From assembly GCF_002709775.1 (NCBI RefSeq), contig NZ_PAQR01000026.1:1-64000 (forward strand): a stretch of DNA of 64,000 bases. Reading direction: 5' to 3'. A program made the position numbers and the translations under genes. Under the pieces are notes generated by a model. That model saw only the letters and a program-made list of their open reading frames with translations, made no database searches and was not told the origin of the DNA. How positions within the stretch are numbered: the stretch's first letter is position 1; each line of letters opens with the position of its first letter. This DNA comes from Thalassospira sp. GTDB taxonomy: Bacteria > Pseudomonadota > Alphaproteobacteria > Rhodospirillales > Thalassospiraceae. This document shows, piece by piece, positions 17,251 to 31,178 of the stretch.

Positions 17251-18858
17251 TTACTCAGCGAGATCTACACCGTAGAAGATGTGACCACCGAACGGATCGA
17301 TTTTGTAGTCAACAACTTCGTTACGGACCGGCTCAAATACGATCGAGTGTGCAATGGTTGCCCACGGTGCTTCGCGTTTGAAGACCAGCTGTGCTTCTTC
17401 GTACAGACGGGTACGCTCGAGAACGTCCGAGGTGGTTTTCGCCTGCTGGATCAGCTGTTCGAATTCGTCGTTGCAGAAACGAGCGCGGTTCGAACCGCCA
17501 ACACCGTCACAGCCGAGAAGAACTGCAAGGAAGTTGTCGGGGTCGCCGTTATCACCAGTCCAACCGAGCATGAAGGTACCCTGTTCACCTTTTTTGGTGC
17601 GATCAAGGTATTCACCCCACTCGTAGGAAACGATCTCGGCATTGACGCCAATCGCAGCCCAGTCAGCCTGAATCAGCTCTGCCATACGGCGAGCATTCGG
17701 GTTGTAAGGACGCTGAACCGGCATGGCCCAGATGTCGGTGGTGAAGCCGTCCGGGTAACCAGCTTCTGCCAGCATGGCTTTGGCTGCTTCCGGATCATAC
17801 GGGTCATCAACGGTGTCGTTGTTGTAAGACCAGATGGTCGGCGGGATCGGGTTTTTCGCAGCAGAACCTGCACCCTGGTAAACACCTTCGATGATGGCGT
17901 CTTTGTTGATCGCCATGTTCAGTGCTTTACGAACTTTCGGATCGGTGAACGGCTCTTTCTCGGTGTTGTAACCGAGGTAACCAACGTTCAGACCTTCCTG
18001 GCTCAGCAGGTTGACATCTGCGTCTGCGTCCATTTCTTCCAGATCAGCCGGGTTCGGGTACGGCATGACATGGCATTCGCCAGCTTTAAGCTTCTGGTAG
18101 CGAACGGTGCTGTCCGGCGTGATCGCGAAGATCAGGTTGTCGATCGCTGCTTTGCCTTCCCAGTATTCCGGGAATGCTTTGTAACGGATAACCGCATCTT
18201 TCTGATAAGCGACCAGCTGGAACGGACCGGTGCCGACCGGGTTCAGGTCAACATTTTCCGGGGTGCCGGCTTCCATCATCGCGTCGGCGTATTCAGCCGA
18301 AAGAACCGATGCAAAGTCCATCGCCATGTTGGCAATGAACGGAGCTTCCGGGCGGTTCAGGACGAACTTGACGGTGTAGTCGTCAACCTTGACGATGTCC
18401 TTGATCAGGTCCGGCATGGACATGCCGTTGAAGTACTCGTAAGAGCCACCGGAAACGCCGTGATACGGATGCTCTTTGTCAAACTGACGCATGAAGGTGA
18501 AGATCACGTCATCAGCATTGAAATCACGGGTCGGGGTGAAATCTTCGGTGGTGTGGAACTTCACACCTTTGCGCAGGTTGAAGGTATATTCCAGACCATC
18601 AGCCGAAACGTCCCAGCTGGTCGCAAGACCCGGAACGATGGTGGTGGTGCCGCGCTTGAACTGTACCAGGCGGTTGAAAACCTGACGCGAGGACGCATCA
18701 AAGGTCGTGCCTGCGGTGTAAAGCGACGGGTTGAAGCCTTCCGGGCTACCTTCCGAGCAATATACCAGAGTTTTTGCCGAAGCGGCAGTCGGAGCAGCAA
18801 GTGCGGTGGCTGCAAGCAGGCCTGCACCAAGTGCCACTTTGACGAAATTCGCTTTCAT
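17251..18858 (-). CDS. dppA: Dipeptide-binding periplasmic protein (SBP family 5, DppA type)
   Basis: A 535-residue exported binding protein, the substrate-recognition part of the importer. The signal peptide ends near TAASAKTLVYCSEGSPEGFNP; that last segment, with its early cysteine, matches DppA. Further on it has LRKGVKFH, NPVGTGPFQL and GWTGDNGDPDNFL, all DppA-type family 5 landmarks. As first gene of the operon it has its own promoter region (18859-19262). The whole gene is also open in the antisense direction, which I regard as codon-usage shadow. Confidence 0.94.
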   Translation of the reverse strand: MKANFVKVALGAGLLAATALAAPTAASAKTLVYCSEGSPEGFNPSLYTAGTTFDASSRQVFNRLVQFKRGTTTIVPGLATSWDVSADGLEYTFNLRKGVKFHTTEDFTPTRDFNADDVIFTFMRQFDKEHPYHGVSGGSYEYFNGMSMPDLIKDIVKVDDYTVKFVLNRPEAPFIANMAMDFASVLSAEYADAMMEAGTPENVDLNPVGTGPFQLVAYQKDAVIRYKAFPEYWEGKAAIDNLIFAITPDSTVRYQKLKAGECHVMPYPNPADLEEMDADADVNLLSQEGLNVGYLGYNTEKEPFTDPKVRKALNMAINKDAIIEGVYQGAGSAAKNPIPPTIWSYNNDTVDDPYDPEAAKAMLAEAGYPDGFTTDIWAMPVQRPYNPNARRMAELIQADWAAIGVNAEIVSYEWGEYLDRTKKGEQGTFMLGWTGDNGDPDNFLAVLLGCDGVGGSNRARFCNDEFEQLIQQAKTTSDVLERTRLYEEAQLVFKREAPWATIAHSIVFEPVRNEVVDYKIDPFGGHIFYGVDLAE

Positions 18859-19262
18859 TAAATGCCTCCCTCAAGGCTGGTCCGAACAAATCGATGCTGT
18901 CTGCGTGACATTTTTTGGTCACGCTTGACGGTGCATCTTGCAACGGACGGGGTTTACCCGATCCAACAGGTATGAATGTTGGCAATCGACGAGGGAAAGT
19001 AATCAGGGTTTCTACGTATCGTCAACGGTTCCTGCGGGATTTTACGTAGCCTGAGGAGGGGCGGAAATGATGAATTTAAGTCAAGTGTTTGTTATTTTTA
19101 TGAAATTCACTGTCCACTTTCGTCGGGGCAGCTGTGCATTTTTTTCAAAGCTCGGTGGGTGAAATCGTTAAATCACGTGTTTGAAATGTGCTTTCAAACG
19201 ATTCATATCTTATTGAAACATAATGATTCGTTTGATTTCACCCCGGCTTTTTGTGTGAATTT
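18859..19262. other. Non-coding region between dppA and the threonine aldolases
   Basis: These 404 bases hold no credible gene. The part next to dppA must carry its promoter and ribosome site (GGGAGGCATTT before the ATG on the minus strand). The part next to the threonine aldolase stop is AT-rich and contains the nested palindromes listed separately at 19157-19243. Confidence 0.6.
19157..19243. repeat. Nested inverted repeats downstream of the threonine aldolase pair
   Basis: An outer 10-bp inverted repeat (GGGTGAAATC, 19157-19166, with GATTTCACCC, 19234-19243) encloses two further ones: TTTGAAA / TTTCAAA (19180-19186 with 19192-19198) and CAAACGATTCAT / ATGATTCGTTTG (19195-19206 with 19223-19234, one mismatch). 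The inner arms overlap, so the two inner stems would exclude each other. It may act as a terminator-like or switch-like RNA structure, or as a DNA-binding region for dppA. No known riboswitch class is recognised. Confidence 0.55.
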
Positions 19263-20282
19263 CTACCCTAGGGTGGTTTTGAGTTTGGTGATTTGCACGA
19301 TATCCGTGTTCCAGGCCGCGACAAATCGATAAACATCAGCACCAAGCGATGGCCATCCGTGGAACATCAGGCCAGCATCACGCAGTTTGCTGGCAAGTTC
19401 TGGCGCCATTTTGACGAATAGCTCATTCCCCTCTGCCGCGTGCGCCAGTTCTGCGCCTTGTGAGACGAGAACGTCGGCAAGTGCCTGTGCCGCTTTATTG
19501 GCATGGGCTGCATTTTTCAGCCAGACATCATCCTTGATATAGGCCAGAAGCTGAGTTGCGAGATAACGATGCTTGGAATGCAGATGGCCGCTGCGTTTGC
19601 GGGCCTGTTCGATCCGGGCTTTCAGGCTTGTGTCAAAAAGAACAATCGCATCGACCGCCATGGCACCGTTTTTGGTCGCGCCAAAGCTGATGGCATCAAC
19701 ACCGGCCTTCCAGGTGATATCGGCCGGATGACATTTCAGATGGGCCATCGCATTGGCAAAACGCGCACCATCCATGAACAGGCGCAAGTCATGCTTGCGA
19801 CAGACATCGCCAATCGCTGTGACCTCATCAATAGTGTAAACCGCACCCAGTTCGGTCGCCTGGGTAATTGCCACACATTCCGGGGCGACAGAATGCACGC
19901 CCCGATCAACAAGGCCGGAGATAAAGGCATCGAGATCGCCTGCTTCCAGCTTGGCGGCCGGGCCATCCATAGGCAAAAGCTTCGCGCCGCCGGTAAAGAA
20001 GGCAACACCGGTGCTTTCATCTTCATTGATGTGCGCTTCGTGGTGACAGACGACCCCGCCATAGGGCGACACAAGTGCGGATAGGCTGATGCAGTTTGCC
20101 GCGGTGCCGGTTGCCACCGGAATAACGGCAACGTCCTTGCCAAACAGCTCGGAAAAGGCAGCATCAAGTTTCTGGCTGATATTGTCGCTACCATAGGCCG
20201 GGGCGTTGGCCGATGCGTCCTTTGTCAGGGCTTCAAGTACTTCCGGGCAAAAGGGCGATACATTGTCCGAGGCAAAATTCAT
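19263..20282 (-). CDS. ltaE: Low-specificity threonine aldolase, copy 1
   Basis: A PLP enzyme of fold type I, 339 residues, that cleaves threonine or allo-threonine to glycine and acetaldehyde. The N-terminus is MNFASDNVSPFCPEVLEAL; the PLP lysine sits in SFGATKNGAMAVDA, and PVATGTAANCISLSALV is the cofactor-phosphate region. The ATG at 20282 gives an end-to-end match with the neighbouring paralogue; the frame runs open to 20327. It is the downstream member of a tandem pair with 74 bases between them, both on the minus strand, consistent with gene duplication. Confidence 0.9.
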   Translation of the reverse strand: MNFASDNVSPFCPEVLEALTKDASANAPAYGSDNISQKLDAAFSELFGKDVAVIPVATGTAANCISLSALVSPYGGVVCHHEAHINEDESTGVAFFTGGAKLLPMDGPAAKLEAGDLDAFISGLVDRGVHSVAPECVAITQATELGAVYTIDEVTAIGDVCRKHDLRLFMDGARFANAMAHLKCHPADITWKAGVDAISFGATKNGAMAVDAIVLFDTSLKARIEQARKRSGHLHSKHRYLATQLLAYIKDDVWLKNAAHANKAAQALADVLVSQGAELAHAAEGNELFVKMAPELASKLRDAGLMFHGWPSLGADVYRFVAAWNTDIVQITKLKTTLG

Positions 20283-20356
20283 CTTAAATCTCGTTATTTT
20301 TCGGTGGCATTCGGGCGGTGATATCATACGTAACCGCGCAATGTTGCAAGGTGGGG

Positions 20357-21379
20357 CTAAACACCAATGGTATCTGGCAGGACCTTGATCATTTCAATCG
20401 GGCTGTTCCAGGCACATACAAATCGATAGGCATCCGGGCCAAGCGAAGGCCATGGACGAAATACGATACCTGCGTCGCGCAGCTTTGCAGCCAGTCGACC
20501 ATCCATGTGAATAAACAGCTCGTTGCCCTGTGGGGCAAAGGCCGGCGTTGCGTCCAATCCTGATAGAGATTTGGCAAGTGCCGTTGCAGCTTCATTGGCA
20601 TGACGGGCATTTCGCAGCCACAGATCATCTTTAAGATAGGCCAGAAGTTGTGCCGCTAGATAGCGATGCTTGGAAAACAGATGGCCGCCGCGCTTGCGGT
20701 TTTGTTCCGTTTTCCGCCGGAGTTCCGGATCAAACAGAATAATGGCATCGACCGCGAGTGCGCCGTTTTTGGTCGCGCCGAAGCTCAGGACGTCGACACC
20801 GGCTTTTGATGTAATTTCGGACGGATGGCAATCAAGGGCTGCAACCGCATTGGCAAAGCGTGCCCCATCCATGAAAAGCCGCATTTGATGGTTCTGGCAA
20901 ACCGATCCAATCGCCTGAATTTCGTCAACGCTGTAAACGGTTCCAAATTCCGTACTTTGAGTGATTGCGACACATTCGGGATCGACGGAATGCATGCCGT
21001 TTGGCACATGGCTGGTCAAATAGGCATCCAGCGCATCAGCCTCGATCTTTGCTGACGGGCCGTCCATGCAAAGCAATTTCGCCCCGCCGCCGTAAAACGC
21101 AACGCCGGTTGATTCCGTAACATTGATATGGGCGTGATGATGGCACACCACACCACCAAATGGTGACACCAGCCCCGATAGCCCGATAACATTTGCCGCA
21201 GTTCCGGTTGCAACCGGTACAACGCAAACCTCTGTCCCGAACAGTTTTGAAAATGCGTCATCAAGCTGTTGGCTTTTGTCATCTACGCCATAGGGCAGGG
21301 CGCTTGCATCGCTTTCGGCGACAATCGCGGCAAGGATTTCCGGACAGATCGGTGTCACATTGTCAGATGAAAAGTTCAT
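20357..21379 (-). CDS. ltaE: Low-specificity threonine aldolase, copy 2
   Basis: A 340-residue paralogue of the next gene, aligned over its full length with the same landmarks: FSSDNVTPICPEIL at the start, VPVATGTAANVIGLSGLVSPFGGVVCHH, and SFGATKNGALAVDA with the PLP lysine. The ATG at 21379 matches the paralogue's start; an upstream in-frame start at 21430 would add a non-conserved stretch. The two copies differ at many positions, so the duplication is not recent and they may differ in substrate or regulation. Confidence 0.9.
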   Translation of the reverse strand: MNFSSDNVTPICPEILAAIVAESDASALPYGVDDKSQQLDDAFSKLFGTEVCVVPVATGTAANVIGLSGLVSPFGGVVCHHHAHINVTESTGVAFYGGGAKLLCMDGPSAKIEADALDAYLTSHVPNGMHSVDPECVAITQSTEFGTVYSVDEIQAIGSVCQNHQMRLFMDGARFANAVAALDCHPSEITSKAGVDVLSFGATKNGALAVDAIILFDPELRRKTEQNRKRGGHLFSKHRYLAAQLLAYLKDDLWLRNARHANEAATALAKSLSGLDATPAFAPQGNELFIHMDGRLAAKLRDAGIVFRPWPSLGPDAYRFVCAWNSPIEMIKVLPDTIGV

Positions 21380-21480
21380 TGGGGCCTCAACGGGATCGGG
21401 CAAAAGCGAGTTTAGATGCAAGAAGGTCATGCTTGGTGGTGGGCCAAGAGTGTTTGGATTTTACCCGCTTGGCAAGTTCG

Positions 21481-23763
21481 CTATTTGCTGGTGGCGATAA
21501 AGACACCATCCCAATCGGTTGGTGGCGGTGTGTCTTTGAATAGCGCAATCCGCTCAGCATAAAGATTATAAAGGCCATCAAGCGATGCGAATTCGTGCGA
21601 TGCTTCCCGGCATTTTTCGATCAATCCTTCGGCGTCTTCCCAACCTTGAGTACGATAAGCAACAAGCATCGCCGCATGCAGATCAGCAAAGGTTTTGAAC
21701 GGATCAGTGGCTGCCATGGCCTTATCGCCCAGCAGGGCAAAGATATGCACGGCCTCGCTTTTGCCTTTCACTGCAATCAGGTCCAGTTCAATAACCGCGA
21801 AGTCATCGCCGACCCGTTTGACAACATCCTCGCCCAACACAACATCGACGCCATAATTCTTTGACTGGCCTTCAAGGCGGGAGGCAAGATTGACCGCATC
21901 GCCGAGCACGGAATAGTCAAAGCGCTGATCAGAGCCCATATTGCCGACAAGGCAATCACCGCAATTGATCCCGATGCCGACATTGAGTGGCAGGAAGGTC
22001 TCATTGGCTTCGTCGGCTTCAAGTTTGCGGACATCATTCAATTGTTTCAAGGCGTTTCGCATGGCAAGGGCGCCGTCGCAGGCATGGTGGGCATGGTTTT
22101 CAACATCAAGCGGGGCGTTCCAGAACGCCATGATGCAGTCGCCCATATATTTGTCGATCGTGCCTTCCCGGTCGAGGATGCACTCGGTCAATGGCGTTAG
22201 AAGCCGGTTGATCAGACGGGTCAGGCCTTGCGGATTGGATTTGAAGCCCTCCGAGATCGCCGTAAATCCGCGAACATCGCAGAACATCAAGGTCAAGTCA
22301 CGGGTCTCGCCACCAAGCTTGAGGCGCTCGGGATGTTCGGCCAGTTGCGCGACAAGCGCGGGGGACAGATAGTTGGCAAATGCTGCACGTACCTGACGGC
22401 GCTCACCCTCTGTCCGCATGAACCCAAGGGAGCTGGTCGCAAGGTACACGGCTGCCAAACCGACAATCGGATAAAGCGGATCAATCAGGATAAGTTCGTG
22501 TGTGTATGCCCACCAAGAAACGCCAAGCGCACTGGCCGCGATCGCAAAACCGATAACAGCCGGCCAGACCGCGCCAAGGCGTGGAACGGTCAAAACAAAG
22601 AATATGCCAACGATCAGAAGGACGAGCATCTCGACCTCCGCCGCCCAATAGGGACGGGTGAGGAAATGCTCCAAAAGCATCTGTTCGAGCATTTCGGCGT
22701 GGATTTCCACCCCCGGGATAATCCGGTCAAGCGGGGTTGAACGCAAATCAAGCAGGCCGGCAGCACTGGTTCCCAGAAGAACCATCTTGTTTTGCAAAAT
22801 GTTGCGGCCAACGGTGCCTTCAAGGACATCGGTTGCCGACAAGTAGCGATCATTCTGATGACCGGTAAAATGCACCCACATATTGCCAGCATGATCTGTC
22901 GGGATGGTCACGGCACCAACGCGAACCGATGCAATACCTTCCGAACTGGTCCAGCGCGTACTGCCGCTGGCACCGGACATGCGCACCAGCATGGTCTTGG
23001 GGGCGTTTTGCAAAACACGCAGCATTTCAAGGGTTAGCGTTGGATAGACGGGTTTGCCAATGACCGGCTGCTCATGGTCGATCGCGGCCAGCAACGGAAC
23101 ACGGCGCACAACCCCGTCCTGACCGGGCGAAACATTCACCAACGCATTACCAGTTGCCGCCGCCTCGATCACATCAAGGTTCTTGGCCGCACTTGGCAAA
23201 ACCGGGACAAAGTCGGAAAGCTTGCGGCCGGCTTCGCCAGCGGCACTGAAATTGCCAACCTGACGGGGCAGGGCTTCAAACTTCCCGTTACGCAGTTGGA
23301 CGGCGGTGATGACATTGCCGGTGCCTTCAATGAAGCGGGCGAAAAGCTCGTCATGGTCCGGCAGTGCTTCGGCCATTTCCGCTATGCGGTCGTTGTCCGG
23401 GCCTTGAGGCCAATCCTTGATCACGCGTGATGGCGATGTACGATCCGGCTCGGCAAAAACCATATCAAAGCCGACAACCAAAGCCCCGTTGGAGCGGAGG
23501 CGATATAAAAGTTCCGAGAGCTTCGTGCGTGGCCATGGCCACTGGCCTTCTTCCTGCAAACTGCGCTCGTCGATATCGACAATCCGAACACCAACGTCTT
23601 CAAATTCTCGCGGGGAAATCTGCTGATAAAGATCGAAAACCGTCAAACGCAACTGATCAATCACCGGCACATTCTGCCAGCGCAAAACGATGCAGGTGAA
23701 CAGAATGCCCAGTGGAACAAGATATTGCAGCCCGGTCAGCATGCCGGATTTGCTAAGGCGCAT
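21481..23763 (-). CDS. CHASE2-domain class III adenylate/guanylate cyclase
   Basis: A 760-residue membrane protein. After one N-terminal membrane segment (about residues 12-28) comes a periplasmic CHASE2 sensor domain (roughly 40-350, with DIDERSLQEEGQWPWPR and FDMVFAEPDR). Three more membrane segments (about 370-450) lead to a class III cyclase domain (about 490-680). Both metal-binding aspartates are visible (FCDVRGFT and KYMGDCIMAF), as is VLGDAVNLASRLEG with the catalytic Asn and Arg, so the enzyme should be active. The lysine in DKYMGD favours ATP. It is the third gene of an operon with the FecR and beta-barrel genes and is likely the signal output, making cAMP inside in response to an envelope cue. 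Confidence 0.92.
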   Translation of the reverse strand: MRLSKSGMLTGLQYLVPLGILFTCIVLRWQNVPVIDQLRLTVFDLYQQISPREFEDVGVRIVDIDERSLQEEGQWPWPRTKLSELLYRLRSNGALVVGFDMVFAEPDRTSPSRVIKDWPQGPDNDRIAEMAEALPDHDELFARFIEGTGNVITAVQLRNGKFEALPRQVGNFSAAGEAGRKLSDFVPVLPSAAKNLDVIEAAATGNALVNVSPGQDGVVRRVPLLAAIDHEQPVIGKPVYPTLTLEMLRVLQNAPKTMLVRMSGASGSTRWTSSEGIASVRVGAVTIPTDHAGNMWVHFTGHQNDRYLSATDVLEGTVGRNILQNKMVLLGTSAAGLLDLRSTPLDRIIPGVEIHAEMLEQMLLEHFLTRPYWAAEVEMLVLLIVGIFFVLTVPRLGAVWPAVIGFAIAASALGVSWWAYTHELILIDPLYPIVGLAAVYLATSSLGFMRTEGERRQVRAAFANYLSPALVAQLAEHPERLKLGGETRDLTLMFCDVRGFTAISEGFKSNPQGLTRLINRLLTPLTECILDREGTIDKYMGDCIMAFWNAPLDVENHAHHACDGALAMRNALKQLNDVRKLEADEANETFLPLNVGIGINCGDCLVGNMGSDQRFDYSVLGDAVNLASRLEGQSKNYGVDVVLGEDVVKRVGDDFAVIELDLIAVKGKSEAVHIFALLGDKAMAATDPFKTFADLHAAMLVAYRTQGWEDAEGLIEKCREASHEFASLDGLYNLYAERIALFKDTPPPTDWDGVFIATSK

Positions 23764-23794
23764 CAGGTTTTATGTTTCCGTTTGATCGGCAGGC

Positions 23795-25237
23795 TTATTC
23801 AAGTGTCGCGCTGCCGTCTGTGCCTTCGGAATAGCCGCTGGTCGCCATGTTGAAGTCTACATTGTGGGCGTCTTTAAACGTTGCTGTTGCGCTACAGCCT
23901 AAAGACTGACAGTTGCTATCGTATGAAAAATCACCGCTCGCAAACTTCACATCGCCATTGGTGCCGGAATAGTCGAAAGTGGTGGGGAGGTCTTGGCCGT
24001 TGAGAATGCCGCCTGAACCCACCGGGCCCGCATCGTTTACTTGAACATTCGAAAAGTAGATTTCGATCGTTCGGTTTGCATAGTTCACAGTAGAACGGAA
24101 GCTGTAATCAACATTGGCACCATCAATATCGATCGTTCCAGTCGTTGCTGATCCACTGGTGACTTGTCTGAGGCCATCATAAGTGAAGCCGCTGGAGGAC
24201 GAGCTGTTTTGCGTTGTGTTGTTGTTCAGGATCGACGTGGTTTCAGCCACGTTGGACGCACTGTTGACCGTTCCCATTTGTGCCATGGCGACGTTGATGG
24301 CTTGTGCGCTTGTCGAGCCGGTCTGGTTCTGAGCCTGTCCGGTCTGCTGTTGGGTTACAACCGGTTGCTGGCCGCCCGACGATCCGGATGAAGAGCCATT
24401 GCTGCCCCCCGAGCCGGAACCATCGCTGCCGCGTGATGCGGTACGGACAACATTCGTCGAGAAGTCAAAGGTCGCTGCATCGGTTGGGAAGCGGGTGGGC
24501 GGTGTAACGTTGTTGCTTGAGACAAAAACGCCGAAATTCTCGCCGGTTACGCTTTGTGAGCCACCATTCTGATTAAAGGCGGCAAAAGCCCCCGGGCGCG
24601 AGGTCGTGTCATTACGTGACAGGCCCGGGCCCTGGTTGACCGCCATGAAGACCGGCTGATTGGCTGCATCAGGACTTGATGTATCGAAGCTTCCCGGCAC
24701 GATCTGATTTGCCTGCTCGGCCGTCATCGACCGGATCAGGCCAATTGTGCCGCGAATGCCGATGGAGCCAACCGGCAGGTTCACATCCATGCTTGATGGA
24801 TTGTTGAGCGGAATTTTGCCGGTCACAAAGCGCATAACACCCTTGGCCATGTCGGCAACAATCCGCCCATCACCCGTTGCCGGGTCATATACGAACTCAT
24901 CAATCGCGATGTCGCTGTTCGGGCCGATGGTAAAGACCGTTTCATCAAGCAACAGAACCTGCATGCCTGCACCCGCCGATGTCGTGATGCGATCACCAAG
25001 ATAAACCGGCATGCCGCTTTCAACCAGAATACCGACTTCGCCAGTGACTTTTGCCAGTGTGATTTCACCGGTCACAGCAGCAGATACACCAGCCATTTCG
25101 GCCTGGACTTCTGCCTGTGCCGGTTGCGGTGTGACAAGCGACGTGGCAGCCAGAAACGGCGCGCACAGCAAGGCTGTTGTCGCAAGTCGTCGGATCGATT
25201 TCTTGCAGGTCAGGGGCGAAGTCTTGGCCTTGTACAT
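23795..25237 (-). CDS. Exported FecR-domain protein with beta-rich C-terminus
   Basis: A 480-residue secreted protein of unknown ligand. A signal peptide ends at PQPAQAEV (about residue 43). A FecR-type domain covers roughly 55-165, with VYLGDRITTSAGAG, IGPNSDIAIDEF and IGIRGT. A Ser/Gly/Gln-rich linker (about 255-315) follows. The last 140 residues alternate polar and hydrophobic positions like an antiparallel barrel and contain two cysteines seven residues apart (NCQSLGCSATATF). The ATG at 25237 sits eight bases after GGGAG; a GTG three bases earlier overlaps the upstream stop. No sigma factor or anti-sigma region is present, so it is not a classic FecR regulator. The barrel-like tail and the neighbouring Slam-like gene suggest surface display. 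Confidence 0.85.
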   Translation of the reverse strand: MYKAKTSPLTCKKSIRRLATTALLCAPFLAATSLVTPQPAQAEVQAEMAGVSAAVTGEITLAKVTGEVGILVESGMPVYLGDRITTSAGAGMQVLLLDETVFTIGPNSDIAIDEFVYDPATGDGRIVADMAKGVMRFVTGKIPLNNPSSMDVNLPVGSIGIRGTIGLIRSMTAEQANQIVPGSFDTSSPDAANQPVFMAVNQGPGLSRNDTTSRPGAFAAFNQNGGSQSVTGENFGVFVSSNNVTPPTRFPTDAATFDFSTNVVRTASRGSDGSGSGGSNGSSSGSSGGQQPVVTQQQTGQAQNQTGSTSAQAINVAMAQMGTVNSASNVAETTSILNNNTTQNSSSSSGFTYDGLRQVTSGSATTGTIDIDGANVDYSFRSTVNYANRTIEIYFSNVQVNDAGPVGSGGILNGQDLPTTFDYSGTNGDVKFASGDFSYDSNCQSLGCSATATFKDAHNVDFNMATSGYSEGTDGSATLE

Positions 25238-25239
25238 CA

Positions 25240-26712
25240 CTAGAACTCCCAGCGGCGTGTCAGAAATACCTGCGCACGTGCGTTATGGTATTCGTAGTTG
25301 GGAATGTTTGATTTTGTGTTCAGATACTCGCCCGTGATCGACCAGTTGATCGGTGCCAGAAAGTCAAATATCTGATTTGCCGTTGCGCTATCCCCAAACA
25401 ATTCGGTCGGCAATATCGTTGACAGCGGCGCACCATAGGTCAGGCGTGTTCTTGTACTGCGGTCCGTTCGATGTTGCGGCGAATTGCCGGTCGTCAAAAA
25501 ATCCGGATCGCGGTACTGGTCCATGCCATAGCGGATGCTGCCGCTGATGTAACTTCCCCCACCAAACAGATAAGCATGGATCAGCTCGCCGCTCAAGCTA
25601 TTGTAACTGTAATAGTTTCTCGCGGCATCCTTCATCCCGGCAGACAGGTTAACCGTCGTGCGGTTGTTTGGTGACCAGCTATAGTTTCCGCCAACGCGTG
25701 CGCCATATCTTTGGCCGGAATGCAGGCGAAGGGCGCTCGATTCAGAGGTGTTCTGATAACGCTCGTCGGAATAGCTGACCGCACCATTGAGGTTGAAAAA
25801 CGGGCGGACGTTCCAGTCCAGACGCAGGCGCCCGGTTCTGGCCGTCAGGTACTTTTCTCGCGAAAGCGACTGTGCGGTCTGGCTGAGTGTTGGCGTCAGC
25901 ATCCAGTAGCCGCCACGAATACGTGTACCGATTTCAGCAGAAAATGACCCAAGATCCAGCGCATCCAGTTGAACCTGATCACTGCCATAGCCAGTCACAC
26001 TGGCAAAAATCTCGTGGCCTTCCTGATAACCCAGGTCATAGCTGACGTCATAGCGAAGCGCCCCGATATAGGCGATATCGTTGTTGGGTTTGTCAGCGCT
26101 TGAGGTAATGGCGGTGGGCGTTCCCGTCAGGAGCTGTATCTTGTCGTTGGGGGCCGAATTTCGGTTGCTGTCGATTTGACTGCCCAGAGTCAGGGTTACG
26201 CTTTGCGACAGGCGCTTGCGGCGGCGTTCGATGGCGCTGACATATTGCTGGATGTTGGCTTCGACCTCGGGCGAGATGTTCATCTGCAACAGACGGTCAA
26301 ACTGGGTGCGGGCCTCGTCCAGGCTATCAAGGCGATAAAGCACAATCGCGTAATACAGCCGTACCGGTGCAAGATCCGGATCAAGCACAAGAATACGTTC
26401 GAGCGTTGCCGACGCCCCCCGGACTTCCCCGCGCGCCAATTGCGCCTTGGCCCAGCGGAAGTTCAGAACAATGTCGTCAGGATTGGCGAGAATATCGGCG
26501 TAGGTTATGTCTCCGCCATCATCAGTCCGCAGCAGGAAATTCGCCCGCGCGGTTACGTCGGTCAGCCGTTCGAAATCTTCGGAGAACTGGCGTGCCTCAT
26601 CTGTTCGCACATCAATACTTTGCTGTGCGCGGGCTTCGGCCATTCCGATTGCAAGCACCGTTACACCCGTCATCATCGACGTGGTCACGTACTGCCATAT
26701 GCCTGTCTTCAA
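25240..26712 (-). CDS. TPR and outer-membrane beta-barrel protein (Slam/DUF560-like)
   Basis: A 490-residue protein. A signal peptide (ending near AEARAQQ, about residue 30) is followed by a TPR-like helical region (about 60-170, with LRLYYAIVLYRLDSLDEARTQ-type repeats). The remainder (about 175-490) is rich in alternating aromatic strands (for example YDVSYDLGYQEG, GYWMLTPTLSQT) and ends RRWEF, a typical outer-membrane barrel ending in Phe. Length and order match Slam (surface lipoprotein assembly modulator) and DUF560 proteins, which export barrel-tailed proteins to the cell surface. The start is TTG, seven bases after AGGA. It heads the operon and overlaps or abuts the FecR gene. Confidence 0.75.
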   Translation of the reverse strand: MKTGIWQYVTTSMMTGVTVLAIGMAEARAQQSIDVRTDEARQFSEDFERLTDVTARANFLLRTDDGGDITYADILANPDDIVLNFRWAKAQLARGEVRGASATLERILVLDPDLAPVRLYYAIVLYRLDSLDEARTQFDRLLQMNISPEVEANIQQYVSAIERRRKRLSQSVTLTLGSQIDSNRNSAPNDKIQLLTGTPTAITSSADKPNNDIAYIGALRYDVSYDLGYQEGHEIFASVTGYGSDQVQLDALDLGSFSAEIGTRIRGGYWMLTPTLSQTAQSLSREKYLTARTGRLRLDWNVRPFFNLNGAVSYSDERYQNTSESSALRLHSGQRYGARVGGNYSWSPNNRTTVNLSAGMKDAARNYYSYNSLSGELIHAYLFGGGSYISGSIRYGMDQYRDPDFLTTGNSPQHRTDRSTRTRLTYGAPLSTILPTELFGDSATANQIFDFLAPINWSITGEYLNTKSNIPNYEYHNARAQVFLTRRWEF

Positions 26713-26967
26713 ACTGCTTTCCTACCATTGGCAGGTCATCGCTGTCGCGTTGTCCAAGGAATGTCACGGGCAAAGATTGGTGACGAAACCCGATTGGCGA
26801 CCATAACCTGTTTGGAACCTGTCAAATCAGATTATGGTCTTTGCAAACCAAGGGATAGCCATTCGGCAGGTTGGTGTGGTTGCTCGCTAAGGGATAGGTT
26901 TTTTATCCTTGCGGATGATAAAATTACCGAAAGGTGGTATAGGATTTATCCATAGGTCCATCCACGG

Positions 26968-28401
26968 TTATACGGCGGTGCCGCCAACGGTCAGGCCGTC
27001 AATGCGAAGCGTCGGCTGTCCGACGCCAACCGGAACACCTTGCCCGTCCTTGCCGCAGGTCCCGATGCCGTTATCAAGTTCCATGTCATTGCCGATCATG
27101 GAAACCTTGGTCAGGCTGTCCGGGCCATTGCCAATCAGGGTGGCACCCTTGACCGGTGCGCCAAGCTTACCGTCTTCGATCAAATAGGCTTCAGAGGCCG
27201 AGAACACGAACTTGCCCGACGTGATATCAACCTGACCACCGCCGAAGTTGACCGCGTAAATGCCCTTTTTGACGGATGCCAGAACTTCTTCCGGCTCCTT
27301 GTCGCCACCCAGCATGTAGGTGTTGGTCATGCGCGGCATCGGGGCATGGGCATAGGACTGGCGGCGTCCGTTGCCGGTGGACTTCACCCCGGTCAGGCGG
27401 GCATTGAGGCGGTCCTGCATAAAGCCCTTGAGGATACCGTCCTCGATCAGAACGGTTTGCTGTGTTGGCGTGCCCTCATCATCAATCGAGAGCGATCCGC
27501 GACGGTCATGAATGGTGCCGTCATCGACAACCGTGACACCGGGCGATGCAATCCGTTGGCCCAGAAGACCTGCAAAGGCAGAGGTACCCTTGCGGTTAAA
27601 GTCGCCTTCAAGCCCGTGACCAATGGCCTCGTGCAACAGGATGCCAGGCCAGCCCGGACCAAGCACCACAGTCATTTCACCGGCGGGGGCTGCCACCGAA
27701 TCAAGGTTTACGACCGCCTGACGCAGTGATTCATCAACCGCCTTCTTCCAGGTCTTTTCATCAAAGAACCCGTCATAGCCGATACGGCCACCTTCGCCGT
27801 GTGAACCGGTTTCCATGCGGTCACCCTGTTTGACGACGACCGAGACATTGAACCGCACAAGCGGGCGAATATCGCCAATGCGCTGTCCGCCGGACCGCCA
27901 GATCTGAACCGCCTGCCAATTGCCGGAAATCGATGCCGATACCTGTACAACACGCGGGTCACGTGACCGGGCATAGGCATCAATCTGTGCAAGGAGATCG
28001 ACCTTCGCTTCAAAGGTCGCCTCACCCAACGGGTTCACGTCGGAATAAAGTGAAATGTTTGTGCCGATCGATCCCAGATCGACCTTGCCAGAACGGCCCG
28101 ATCCGACTGCCTTGACCGTTTCGGCCGCGCGTGCGACGGCGTCATTGGACAGTTCGTTGGAATGGGAAAAGGCGGTGGCTTCATCGGCAACAGCACGCAA
28201 GCCAAAGCCCTGTGCGGTGTCAAAGTTCGCACTGCGCAGGCGCCCATCATCCCAGACAAGGCTTTCCGATTGGCGGTATTCAAGGAACAGTTCCCCGTCT
28301 TCAGCCGTGCCAAGCGCATCATTGACCTGTGATTCAAGCCGGTCGCGATCAAGATCACCCTTGGCGAAAAACAGATTGTCGGTGGTGCGAAGATCGGTCA
28401 T
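26968..28401 (-). CDS. tldD: Metalloprotease TldD
   Basis: TldD, with TldE (PmbA), forms a zinc protease that degrades unfolded peptides and matures some peptide antibiotics; TldE is not in this window. The 477-residue protein carries the catalytic HEAIGHGLEGD motif (about residue 260), with the zinc-binding histidines and glutamate intact. Further landmarks are the DRRGSLSIDDEGTPTQ region and the C-terminal TCGKDGQGVPVGVGQPTLRIDGLTVGGTA, typical of the family. It is a single gene, upstream of which DUF3422 is divergent. Confidence 0.95.
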   Translation of the reverse strand: MTDLRTTDNLFFAKGDLDRDRLESQVNDALGTAEDGELFLEYRQSESLVWDDGRLRSANFDTAQGFGLRAVADEATAFSHSNELSNDAVARAAETVKAVGSGRSGKVDLGSIGTNISLYSDVNPLGEATFEAKVDLLAQIDAYARSRDPRVVQVSASISGNWQAVQIWRSGGQRIGDIRPLVRFNVSVVVKQGDRMETGSHGEGGRIGYDGFFDEKTWKKAVDESLRQAVVNLDSVAAPAGEMTVVLGPGWPGILLHEAIGHGLEGDFNRKGTSAFAGLLGQRIASPGVTVVDDGTIHDRRGSLSIDDEGTPTQQTVLIEDGILKGFMQDRLNARLTGVKSTGNGRRQSYAHAPMPRMTNTYMLGGDKEPEEVLASVKKGIYAVNFGGGQVDITSGKFVFSASEAYLIEDGKLGAPVKGATLIGNGPDSLTKVSMIGNDMELDNGIGTCGKDGQGVPVGVGQPTLRIDGLTVGGTAV

Positions 28402-28604
28402 GGAACCTCCTTGGGGCCGGGATTATTCGGCCAGAGAAAATGTCTTTCCCTGCATGATATCTCGGTTGAGGCAGTATTATCCCTTACTCAATTTAGGGTT
28501 TCTGGTGCCTTCAACTTTCGACTATACAGGTACTTGTTCGGGCAAAGGACAAAGCCATGGCCCGAGTGGTTTATATAGACTGCAATAACCAATTATGAAA
28601 GCCC

Positions 28605-29879
28605 GTGGCAATGTTTGTCGAACATCCCCAGCGCGTCGCCCTTCATAATGAAATTCACGCCCGGCCCTTCGGCGGCGTGACCAGTCCTGCGCGCTGTTCC
28701 TGCCTTGCCTTCCAGACGGGCGAAGACCTTGATCAGGCCGTGCGCGACCATTTCACCGCGTTTTGCAATCGCTATAGCCTGACACCACCCGCCCCGGATC
28801 AAAAATATTTCGAGGCCGCCTGTGACGGCTTTTCGGTGATCTGGGAACGCCATGCGGAATTCACGGTCTATGTTTTCAAACGGACCGAGCCGTTCAACAA
28901 TCCGTTCGAAGACCCGGTGATCAATCTTGTGCCGCGTGACTGGCTTGATGAAACGCCAGGCCAATTGATTGTCGGGCTGCACATCGTAGTCGAGAAAACA
29001 GATCGCAGTGATGACGATCTATCGCGGCTGTTTAGTCACAACGGCCTGACAGGCAGCCGGATCCTCGGCGGCACCGCACAGGTCTGGACGGATTTTCGTC
29101 TACATGGCGACGGGTTTGGCCGCATTCTGGTCAAGGATTGTGGCTTGGAGAATCTTCAGGCCGGGCGTCTGGTGCAGCGGCTTAAAGAAATAGAAGTCTA
29201 TCGCATGATGGCGTTGCTGGCCTTTCCACTGGCTCATAGCGCGACGCCAAAGGTATCTGAAATCGATCCCCGCCTGTCGGAAATCACCGCCGAAATGGCC
29301 AGCAAGACGCAAACCAATGACGAAGAAACGCTTGCGAAGCTGACTGATCTCGCCGCCCAGACCGAGGAAATGGCCGCATCGCTGAACTATCGGTTCAGTG
29401 CAGCACGTGCCTATTACCGCATCGTGCAGGCGCGCCTGACCGAGCTTCGCGAAGAACGTATCGAGGGCATGCAAACCATTGCCGAGTTTCTCGAACGTCG
29501 ATTGGCACCGGCCATGCGGACCTGTCAGAATATCGGCGACCGGTTGGAGGTTCTTTCGAAACGTGTCGCGCGCGCCAACAACCTGCTGCGCACCCGTGTA
29601 GATATCCTGCTTGAGGCGCAGAACCGCGACCTTCTGGCCAGTATGGACCGTCGTGTGAAGCTGCAACTGCGTCTGCAGCAAACCGTTGAAGGTCTGTCGG
29701 TCGCGGCCATCACCTACTACGCGGTCGGGCTTCTGGGTTATCTGTTCAAGGCGATCAAGGATGCCGGCGTTCCGATCAATGACCGGGTCGCCACGGGTGT
29801 AGCCGTTCCGCTGGTGCTGGGTGCGATCTGGTTTTCAATGCACCGCATCCGCAAGGCTCTGCACAAGGCAGACGACTAG
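28605..29879 (+). CDS. DUF3422 family membrane protein
   Basis: A 424-residue protein of unknown function. The beginning, HPQRVALHNEIHARPFG, is the DUF3422 hallmark. A long helical, partly coiled-coil region (about 225-370) precedes two hydrophobic segments near the C-terminus (about 365-415), suggesting an inner-membrane protein with its bulk in the cytoplasm. The start is GTG, with an ATG two codons later also possible. The stop overlaps the convergent ctaA stop by four bases. Confidence 0.87.
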   Translation: MAMFVEHPQRVALHNEIHARPFGGVTSPARCSCLAFQTGEDLDQAVRDHFTAFCNRYSLTPPAPDQKYFEAACDGFSVIWERHAEFTVYVFKRTEPFNNPFEDPVINLVPRDWLDETPGQLIVGLHIVVEKTDRSDDDLSRLFSHNGLTGSRILGGTAQVWTDFRLHGDGFGRILVKDCGLENLQAGRLVQRLKEIEVYRMMALLAFPLAHSATPKVSEIDPRLSEITAEMASKTQTNDEETLAKLTDLAAQTEEMAASLNYRFSAARAYYRIVQARLTELREERIEGMQTIAEFLERRLAPAMRTCQNIGDRLEVLSKRVARANNLLRTRVDILLEAQNRDLLASMDRRVKLQLRLQQTVEGLSVAAITYYAVGLLGYLFKAIKDAGVPINDRVATGVAVPLVLGAIWFSMHRIRKALHKADD

Positions 29880-30925
29880 CTTCGAAGCCTATAGGCGGCA
29901 TAGATTGCGGTACCGACCAGAACAACGGCACCGGCCTGATGCGCGACACCAAGCGGTAACCAGACGACGCTCAGAAGAGTTGAAATACCAAGGGTGACCT
30001 GAAGGCAGGCTGCCGCCAGAACCAGATGGGTGGCAAAGCGTTGCTTGGTATCAAGGCCCCATTTGCGAGCGCACCACCAGAAAACCAGCACCATGACAAA
30101 GGTCAGTTTCGCCAGCCAACGATGATCCCACTGCACGGTCATGTGGTCTTCAAAAGGGGCCAGCCAGACCGGATCAAAGACATAAAGCCCATCCGGGATC
30201 AGTTGTCCGTCCATCAGCGGGAAGGTGTTGTAAACATGCCCGGCATTCAGGCCTGCGACAAACCCACCGGACAGGGCCGTAAACACGATCAGGCCCAGTA
30301 GTTGCCAGGCCCGGGTTGATGAGTTGGTCGTCGCTGTACGCGGGCTAAGTTGCTGCAGGCCGACCCACAGAAGGGCGATGAAAATCACCAGCGCCAGTCC
30401 GAAATGGGCAGTCAGGCGATACTGGCTGACATCGGGGCGATCGACCAGACCGCTCATCACCATGTACCAGCCCATCAGGCCCTGCAGACCGCCAAGGATG
30501 AACAGCCCCCAAAGCTTCCACTTGGTCGTACGATCAATCGATTTCTTGGCCAGGAACCAGACGAAGGGCACGAAGAACACGACCCCGATTAACCGCCCCC
30601 AAAGACGGTGGATGAATTCCAGCCAGAAGATGGATTTGAAATCCTCGACCGACATCCAGGCATTGATTTTCTGAAACTCGGGATACTGGCTGTATTTGAT
30701 GTAAAGCGCCTGCCAGTCCGCTGCATTCATCGGCGGGATGATGCCGGTAAAGGGCCGCCATTCGACAATCGAAAGCCCGGACTCGGTCAGGCGCGTCAGG
30801 CCCCCGATCACCACCATGATGAACACCATCGCTGCACAGGAAAACAGCCAGATGGCGACATTTCTGTTGGCTTGTGGTTGCGCAAGGCTGACTTCGGACA
30901 GGGCGGGGGAGGCACTGCTGGACAT
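29876..30925 (-). CDS. ctaA: Heme A synthase CtaA (COX15 type)
   Basis: CtaA oxidises heme O to heme A, the cofactor of aa3-type cytochrome oxidase. The 349-residue protein has about eight membrane segments and the signature VVIGGLTRLTESGLSIVEW, plus FKSIFWLEFIHRLWGR with a heme-ligand His. These are features of the alphaproteobacterial/mitochondrial type. The ATG at 30925 follows GAGAG; the longer upstream frame (to 31060) is not conserved in character. A copper chaperone for the same oxidase is about 19 kb away (PCuAC). Confidence 0.95.
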   Translation of the reverse strand: MSSSASPALSEVSLAQPQANRNVAIWLFSCAAMVFIMVVIGGLTRLTESGLSIVEWRPFTGIIPPMNAADWQALYIKYSQYPEFQKINAWMSVEDFKSIFWLEFIHRLWGRLIGVVFFVPFVWFLAKKSIDRTTKWKLWGLFILGGLQGLMGWYMVMSGLVDRPDVSQYRLTAHFGLALVIFIALLWVGLQQLSPRTATTNSSTRAWQLLGLIVFTALSGGFVAGLNAGHVYNTFPLMDGQLIPDGLYVFDPVWLAPFEDHMTVQWDHRWLAKLTFVMVLVFWWCARKWGLDTKQRFATHLVLAAACLQVTLGISTLLSVVWLPLGVAHQAGAVVLVGTAIYAAYRLRS

Positions 30926-31178
30926 CTGGACGCTCTCTTGACGGTATCTTCTGACGGACGTGTTTTTGAAATTTGGCCCAATATAGGGCGATTTTGCAAA
31001 AATTGCAGGAAAAGCTTTACGGAAAAGTCTGGGGACTTGGATCAGTGTTGGCAGTAGCACTAAATACTTATAATTAGTGTTGTTTGTATATAAAACACAT
31101 AAAAAATGTATTGAATAATTTCATATCCACACTCATAGTGATGGGTAATAGAGAGAAACCCGCATTAGAGGATCGACG

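Follow-up and report, generated by a model that had tools for sequence, protein, structure and literature searches.

A divergent Slam-like protein, a FecR protein with an exchanged C-terminal barrel and a CHASE2 cyclase: a candidate trans-envelope receptor in Thalassospira

The locus described here raises the question of why genes for a putative exporter, a FecR protein and a nucleotide cyclase should be kept side by side. It lies in a window of 64,000 nucleotides from Thalassospira sp. (contig NZ_PAQR01000026.1, positions 1 to 64,000), where three minus-strand genes, which we call A, B and C in their order of occurrence, encode an outer-membrane protein resembling the Slam family of type 11 secretion systems (T11SS), a FecR protein ending in a predicted small barrel, and a CHASE2 class III cyclase (Table 1). 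An earlier note on this DNA had read the three as a single same-strand operon, and coordinates, strand and order are confirmed: A has a TTG start, the GTG start of B has one base in common with the stop codon of A and is immediately followed by an in-frame ATG, and 31 bases (23764-23794) separate B from C. Our contention, which on balance we think probable, is that A, B and C form one trans-envelope receptor, in which a barrel placed outside via A would be joined to a periplasmic FecR domain contacting CHASE2, and cyclic AMP (cAMP) would be changed inside the cell. Two largely open questions, the source of the signals that CHASE2 sensors receive and the nature of what Slam/T11SS proteins export outside animal-associated bacteria, are thereby tied together in a culturable marine genus, in a system of one putative exporter, one putative cargo with a signalling domain and one cyclase. 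L-numbers denote loci, and G-numbers genomes, in the comparisons that follow.

The association of A, B and C exceeds chance. Gene A is present in 25 of 29 Thalassospira genomes, split in two pieces in one of them (G020), and the same 25 carry CHASE2 at E<=5e-58; the four genomes without A have no CHASE2 match, except a weak one in G007 (1.7e-6). In 24 of these genomes both matches sit near each other on a single contig, and in G020 they fall on two. Class-wide, A occurs in 69 of 385 genomes at E<=1e-10. Neighbourhoods were compared in two overlapping samples, whose counts are not additive. The wider sample took in 40 of the 72 listed A places other than our own (A called in 39), and among its 30 A loci with at least 4 kb on each side B was near 22, C near 17 and both near 14. 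The other comprised 66 named loci (A called in 64), of which 41 had the same flank; B accompanied A at 39 of these, C at 37 and both at 35, and none had neither. For the 23 such loci outside Thalassospira the figures were 22, 19 and 18, again with none having neither. The three genes remain together in most relatives with enough flank, in favour of the three-gene system proposed in the earlier note. The cluster recurs, rearranged, in other Alphaproteobacteria, where gene order and orientation differ (A-B-C, C-A-B, or C divergent from A-B), and this variation argues for a functional linkage of the three. On plasmid pAMI5 of Paracoccus aminophilus a TPR protein, a FecR protein and a cyclase are annotated consecutively. 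Labels of Omnitrophota, Elusimicrobia and Chloroflexi also appear among the matches, but these records are metagenome-assembled genomes and may be mis-binned.

The most surprising part, and a new observation, is that the C-terminal barrel of B is hypervariable and is exchanged between Thalassospira species while the FecR domain is conserved. Between the window and L098, A is 99-100% identical, FecR 99%, the CHASE2 domain 98% and the cyclase domain 99%, and identity falls to 85% in the linker and 58% in the barrel. The barrels are further apart in L105 and L106 (36%, with A at 99% and FecR and C at 97%) and in L100 and L101 (44%, with A and FecR at 100% and C at 97%), while L105 and L109 have barrels 86% identical although their A proteins share 81%. 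L099 and L100 show a smaller difference, with barrels at 78% and only a shallow valley in DNA identity (74-79%). Otherwise the DNA profiles have a single deep valley within about 8 to 9.5 kb that are mostly 90-100% identical, beginning in the linker and stopping at the end of B or at most about 150 bases beyond; the profile of L100 falls again past C, where the shared order ends. Synonymous divergence between the window and L098 reaches 1.52 for the linker and 1.28 for the barrel, whereas the remaining regions give 0.15-0.46, and for L105 and L106 the barrel is saturated (not computable), with values of 0.08-0.30 outside linker and barrel. Such a jump indicates that replacement by diverged alleles is part of the variability.

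Comparisons across all pairs and the phylogenies agree with exchange. The pairwise identities of A, FecR and C are mutually correlated (Spearman 0.90-0.93), and their correlations with the barrel are 0.37-0.44 (18 rows, without L114 and L115). The barrel tree (16 rows, with L112 and L113 also left out) rejects the clades L105+L106 (p 0.0019) and L099+L100+L101 (p 0.0017) in the approximately unbiased test, and the A tree rejects four groupings of barrel-alike strains (p of 1e-4 or less); the clades were picked after the pairwise identities were known, and these p-values are indicative. Within the barrel tree L105+L109 is weakly supported (73/58), and L102+L104 and L099+L100+L110 are well supported. 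The barrels of the window and L098 group together (99/97), so that for this pair fast divergence accounts for the difference as well as replacement does, and it is the other pairs that show exchange. We also considered silent barrel copies feeding exchange within a genome and rejected the idea: 24 of the 29 Thalassospira genomes have one barrel match each and five have none, which places the donors outside the same genome at that sensitivity. In loci from other genera FecR is as a rule, though with exceptions, far better conserved than the end of B, and the contrast is weaker than in Thalassospira (L124 and L128 share 92% in the last 130 residues of B). With the remainder conserved, the variable barrel is the likely site of ligand binding, and its variability suggests that recognition is under strong selection. 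The same pattern bears on an explanation in which periplasmic B would act on CHASE2 through FecR until export via A removed it, the cyclase thus reporting on the exporter or the condition of the outer membrane and not on a ligand outside. Such a checkpoint would fit the gene content, a cargo bearing a signalling domain and the pairing of FecR with CHASE2, but it gives no reason for diversification and exchange to be confined to the C-terminal part of B, and we consider it very improbable.

On sequence profiles and structure prediction we class A as a divergent member of the Slam/T11SS family and a putative exporter. Behind an N-terminus that by eye resembles a signal peptide, the AlphaFold2 (AF2) model (predicted local distance difference test, pLDDT, 87) has TPR-like helices at residues 46-165 and 14 main strands at 168-489, the protein ending in RRWEF. 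This is the published architecture of Slam, a TPR domain followed by a 14-strand barrel (PMC5449769; this and the other papers are cited from excerpts). Among the 48 relatives of A in alignment A3, 21 match the Pfam family SlipAM at E<=0.1 (best 1.4e-7) and 29 match TPR_Slam, and two of five more distant A proteins scanned, L097 (7.8e-14) and L090 (1.4e-8), lie above the SlipAM cut-off. Profiles of A were compared with a control panel of seven canonical Slams (each above 169 bits to SlipAM), 13 other SlipAM proteins, 14 BBP2_2 porins and 680 shuffled decoys. With the barrel-only profile six of the seven Slams were matched (E 4e-9 to 5e-4), five of them outscoring every BBP2_2 control; two of the 14 porins fell below 1e-3, over short stretches, and all decoys stayed at or above 0.028. 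The full profile gave 3e-24 to 1e-19 for six of the Slams, and 1e-5 and 4e-4 for two of the porins.

Set against this is the possibility of A being a common TPR-barrel porin, or an exporter of polysaccharide, with a generic beta domain as the tail of B, so that the locus would hold a conventional FecR-CHASE2 sensor with a passenger porin. Fold searches of A do give CymA and OmpG as best matches of the barrel (Z 20-23) and return PelB and BcsC as well, relatives in A3 also match DUF2860 (11 of 48) and BBP2_2 (8 of 48), and two BBP2_2 controls passed 1e-3 with the barrel profile. However, the fold lists contained no solved Slam, so the fold of A could be compared only with porins and exporters; no other barrel family shown matches as many members as SlipAM or has so good a best E-value; most of the canonical Slams beat every BBP2_2 control; and nearly all the fold matches of B's tail are Slam cargo. 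We find this explanation scarcely credible, and the Slam likeness proposed in the earlier note is to be preferred to an unrelated porin family. Searches of solved structures with the single proteins A and B yielded TPR, antibody-linker or other weak matches, and the A2 profile gave weak TPR matches only. In other Pseudomonadota, SlipAM-positive proteins lie directly beside CHASE2 genes at five of 20 SlipAM loci viewed with 1.5 kb flanks (L208, L210, L211, L212 and L219).

The product of B also begins, by eye, with a signal peptide, with no anti-sigma domain and membrane helix there. A lipobox cysteine is absent from the end of this peptide, and a loose lipobox-like pattern occurs in 3 of 90 B proteins. 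Pfam recognises FecR in the window (PF04773, 6.1e-6) and in all 42 B proteins of alignment A4, and the predicted fold resembles the signalling domain of PupR (6ovk; Z 15.5, 137 aligned residues, 2.6 A) and a 'cell surface anchoring domain' (5ix9; Z 7.4, 75 of its 76 residues, 2.1 A). The latter ('Antifreeze protein'), which we take to be the anchoring domain of the Marinomonas primoryensis adhesin, also appeared in the single-protein structure search of B (E 0.047). Periplasmic retention domains of large adhesins have been likened to a membrane-anchoring domain first seen in the Marinomonas primoryensis adhesin (PMC13090378), and a retained FecR domain would explain how B, having no lipobox, stays on the cell.

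At the other end of B, the AF2 model confidently places eight strands of at least three residues at 364-479. Of the 46 fold rows listed for this domain, 44 are fHbp, NHBA, hemophilin, TbpB or LbpB (Z 4.8-7.9) and the remaining two are one fungal protein; we take 3hoe to be TbpB and 2lfu to be NHBA, and assume that some of the matched cargo, such as NHBA, depends on Slam. Almost every row belongs to the same functional kind, which makes the assignment to the cargo fold persuasive, and the barrel that the earlier note suspected in the tail of B is thus predicted with confidence. Of 11 further FecR proteins, taken from a wider set of relatives, 4 give a sub-cut-off TbpB_B_D match in or close to the C-terminus (best 2e-4). 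A scan for the barrel, used as match or no match only, was positive in 54 of 90 B proteins, a set that includes truncated proteins and some genomes twice. The likeness to Slam/T11SS systems (SlipAM PF04575, DUF560) therefore consists of a TPR domain and predicted 14-strand barrel in A, an eight-strand cargo fold at the end of B and adjacent genes, whereas A differs as a divergent branch, itself below the Pfam cut-off, and B differs from TbpB-type cargo in its lack of lipidation, its N-terminal FecR domain and its neighbouring cyclase. Some A loci have two B-type FecR genes (L069, L077, L123 [= L065], L132, L133, L143, L148 and L149), as if one exporter served two cargo receptors. FecR proteins of about 1450-1620 residues, with large surface parts, are found near CHASE2 cyclases in L096 (8029-12891), L180 and L191.

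Gene C conforms to its earlier description. CHASE2 is known as a periplasmic domain; the hydropathy profile shows a membrane segment at the N-terminus and about three more in the centre; and the class III catalytic motifs are intact by motif position and alignment to CyaB (D496, D542, K538, N625 and R629, with S618 at the class IIIb position). The rule of the purine-selecting lysine points to cAMP, and the sequence suggests this as the product of C. Ten cNMP_binding matches in the genome of the window mean that possible cyclic-nucleotide receptors exist there.

The pairing of FecR with CHASE2 extends well beyond A. In 50 genomes that we chose from a phylum sample, one per genus, 24 of the 73 CHASE2 genes listed have a FecR domain recognised by Pfam no more than 8 kb away, where FecR number and genome size together would predict 0.96; only the best-scoring CHASE2 rows were used, and some neighbours are hidden by contig ends. 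An A homologue occurs in 7 of the 20 regions examined out of these 24, one of them weak and one partial, so that the core would seem to be FecR-CHASE2, to which the Slam-type pair adds one kind of outward connection. FecR-only proteins of 150-162 residues were seen on the opposite strand to CHASE2 genes in L181, L185 and L186, with no A in the stretch read, and in L166 and L168 (Ensifer and Shinella plasmids) genes annotated as FecR, TPR and CHASE2 cyclase lie beside NHLP bacteriocin export genes.

On pSymB of Sinorhizobium meliloti, the gene directly upstream of cyaK (L164 2403-5975) encodes a single 1190-residue chain that unites FecR and TPR with an outer-membrane barrel at its C-terminus, the barrel resting on a sub-cut-off Pfam match and on the published position of the NsrA barrel at 600-1200 (PMC7529298). 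From its place beside cyaK and its size, not its record name, this is probably NsrA, described as an outer-membrane receptor required for cAMP signalling via CyaK (PMC7529298, PMC13001267), with only the barrel loops outside (PMC7529298). The NsrA-CyaK system has in common with ours a FecR gene directly before a CHASE2 cyclase gene, an outer-membrane barrel and a TPR region, and cAMP output is reported for it (PMC7529298, PMC13001267), but it has one chain where ours has two, a larger barrel and no cargo-type mini-barrel.

Domain identities, predicted folds, gene association and the variability of the barrel against a conserved FecR are what the computation gives, and we infer the remaining steps: export of B by A, a periplasmic and retained FecR domain, contact between FecR and CHASE2, the production of cAMP and the signal's direction. 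In the sequence of events that we propose, A would bring the mini-barrel at the C-terminus of B to the cell surface, while B, without a lipid anchor, would keep its N-terminal FecR domain in the periplasm. The disordered linker would join FecR to the outer barrel, through or beside A; FecR would contact C at its periplasmic CHASE2 domain; and a ligand bound outside would alter cAMP synthesis inside. A hypervariable cargo-type barrel, a periplasmic CHASE2 and FecR-CHASE2 pairs without Slam are fitted most simply by such a topology, with the barrel out, FecR in the periplasm and A as the route. An exposed barrel is supported by the confinement of hypervariability to the barrel and part of the linker. 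A periplasmic FecR domain is supported by the single chain encoded before cyaK in S. meliloti, by the resemblance of the fold to an adhesin anchoring domain and by LysM-FecR proteins beside CHASE2 kinases (PMC5192318).

The earlier note had instead supposed that A exports the whole of B, FecR included, and that B senses something at the surface and signals to C. Whole export would accord with a Slam-like A and a cargo-type barrel in B, and unlipidated Slam cargo does exist in the form of the hemophilins (PMC12282271). Yet a fully exported B could not reach a periplasmic CHASE2 domain, FecR-CHASE2 pairs occur without any Slam, and it is FecR that is conserved in B, which a fixed internal partner would lead one to expect; we judge whole export distinctly unlikely. 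Because FecR pairs with CHASE2 in the absence of Slam, NsrA topology leaves only barrel loops outside and CHASE2 is periplasmic, FecR is more likely to be the periplasmic transmitter and the barrel the surface sensor. Of the earlier interpretation, the Slam-like A, the cargo-fold barrel in B and the conserved linkage stand, and sensing at the surface by FecR itself is not supported.

Several observations weigh against the trans-envelope receptor that we propose. Five of the 30 well-flanked A loci in the wider sample have neither B nor C. In the window itself A matches Pfam TPRs and TPR_Slam (6.3e-5, below cut-off), with no match to SlipAM; its barrel profile misses the canonical Slam L202, and scores L203 (4.6e-4) no better than the top BBP2_2 control L233 (2.5e-4). 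Neither TbpB_B_D nor FHBP_C is found by Pfam in any of the 42 B proteins of A4, the window's included, and the Z values below 8 for the cargo fold are middling, the fold tool cautioning about common arrangements. The FecR gene smc02177, whose locus tag follows cyaD1 in S. meliloti, was dispensable for perceiving the one plant signal tested (PMC5498481). The A-family profile has no match in the 1190-residue NsrA-like protein, a distant relation still being possible; we had entertained a true fusion of B and A, but the profile misses the barrel and the protein is retained as an architectural parallel only.

Finally, in a Rhizobiales/Robiginitomaculum branch (10 loci) B consists of FecR and a low-complexity tail with no barrel and A is retained, so that A must there work with the tail alone or be the receptor itself. 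The second option could be generalised: A would be a receptor like NsrA, and B an adaptor in the periplasm, built on FecR, with a tail that plugs or reads A and a barrel that is not displayed outside. Both this branch and the S. meliloti gene next to cyaK, with its union of FecR, TPR and outer-membrane barrel, speak for such an arrangement. Nonetheless, the barrel of B varies and is exchanged between the very strains in which A is 99-100% identical, and its fold matches almost only exported Slam cargo, and we regard a receptor role for A as unlikely.

A more specific form of the trans-envelope receptor, which we put forward tentatively, is that the cargo of a Slam pore stays threaded in it and acts as a polymorphic receptor. 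FecR would be retention plug and periplasmic transmitter, and the mini-barrel an interchangeable module for recognising self/non-self, phage or various ligands, feeding a conserved cAMP relay. If true, type 11 secretion would here be put to use in signalling, and the complex would be an allele-recognition receptor in a bacterium.

Part of the FecR-CHASE2 pairing has been described before, in NsrA-CyaK of S. meliloti, in Campylobacterota and in Burkholderia, and FecR near CHASE2 is already in print for Campylobacterota (PMC9239204), Burkholderia (PMC5192318) and S. meliloti genes (PMC5498481). The CHASE2 cyclase clusters of Campylobacterota are probably the same system or a near relative; they also encode a phosphodiesterase, and in the excerpts their TPR protein is not called Slam (PMC9239204). 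The Burkholderia BiofilmReg operon likewise has a FecR protein beside a CHASE2 sensor, but with LysM-FecR, a histidine kinase output and, as excerpted, no outer-membrane barrel among its four genes (PMC5192318). The enrichment of FecR near CHASE2 suggests a common receptor logic behind these separate reports from rhizobia, Campylobacterota and Burkholderia. With FecI/FecR/FecA our locus has the FecR fold in common, closest to the signalling domain of PupR; B, however, has a signal peptide in place of the anti-sigma domain and membrane helix. The earlier note had also remarked on the want of a sigma factor or TonB receptor, unlike classic FecR systems, and no such family is found among A, B, C and six scanned neighbours (17251-31060). 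Among the papers listed in searches of an open-access library we found none joining Slam to FecR or CHASE2 signalling, and in three Slam papers (PMC5449769, PMC8406197, PMC12282271) neither the word FecR nor 'cyclase' occurs.

Table 1. Features of the A-B-C locus, in window coordinates
Feature	Coordinates	Strand	Size or basis
Gene A: divergent Slam/T11SS-family outer-membrane protein (predicted), signal peptide + TPR domain + 14-strand barrel	25240..26712	-	490 aa
TPR region of A, residues about 60-165	26218..26535	-	Pfam TPR families, sub-cut-off TPR_Slam 6.3e-5, helices in model
Predicted outer-membrane barrel of A, 14 main strands, residues 168-489	25246..26211	-	AF2, block pLDDT 84-98
Gene B: FecR protein with Slam-cargo-like C-terminal barrel, signal peptide, no lipobox	23795..25240	-	481 aa
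FecR fold of B, residues 45-265, conserved	24446..25108	-	block pLDDT mostly 72-93; PupR 6ovk match
Ser/Gly/Gln/Asn-rich disordered linker of B, residues 267-349	24194..24442	-	pLDDT <50; sequence
C-terminal 8-strand barrel of B, residues 350-481, hypervariable, exchanged between Thalassospira species	23798..24193	-	AF2, fold matches
Gene C: CHASE2 class III nucleotide cyclase, probably adenylate	21481..23763	-	760 aa
CHASE2 periplasmic domain of C	22600..23700	-	Pfam CHASE2 residues 22-388, 8.6e-60
Cyclase catalytic domain of C, residues 488-671	21751..22302	-	Guanylate_cyc 1.2e-20; CyaB 3r5g 1.9e-29

The closest named relative of the window is Thalassospira sp. HJ, whose A is 99% identical. 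The six neighbours scanned match SBP_bac_5, Beta_elim_lyase (two genes), PmbA/TldD, DUF3422 and COX15-CtaA; a TldD-type gene lies upstream of the operon and the two Beta_elim_lyase genes, presumably threonine-aldolase-like, lie downstream. The latter form a tandem pair just past C on the same strand (19263-21430), which, judged by gene lengths, is not adjacent to C in all Thalassospira.

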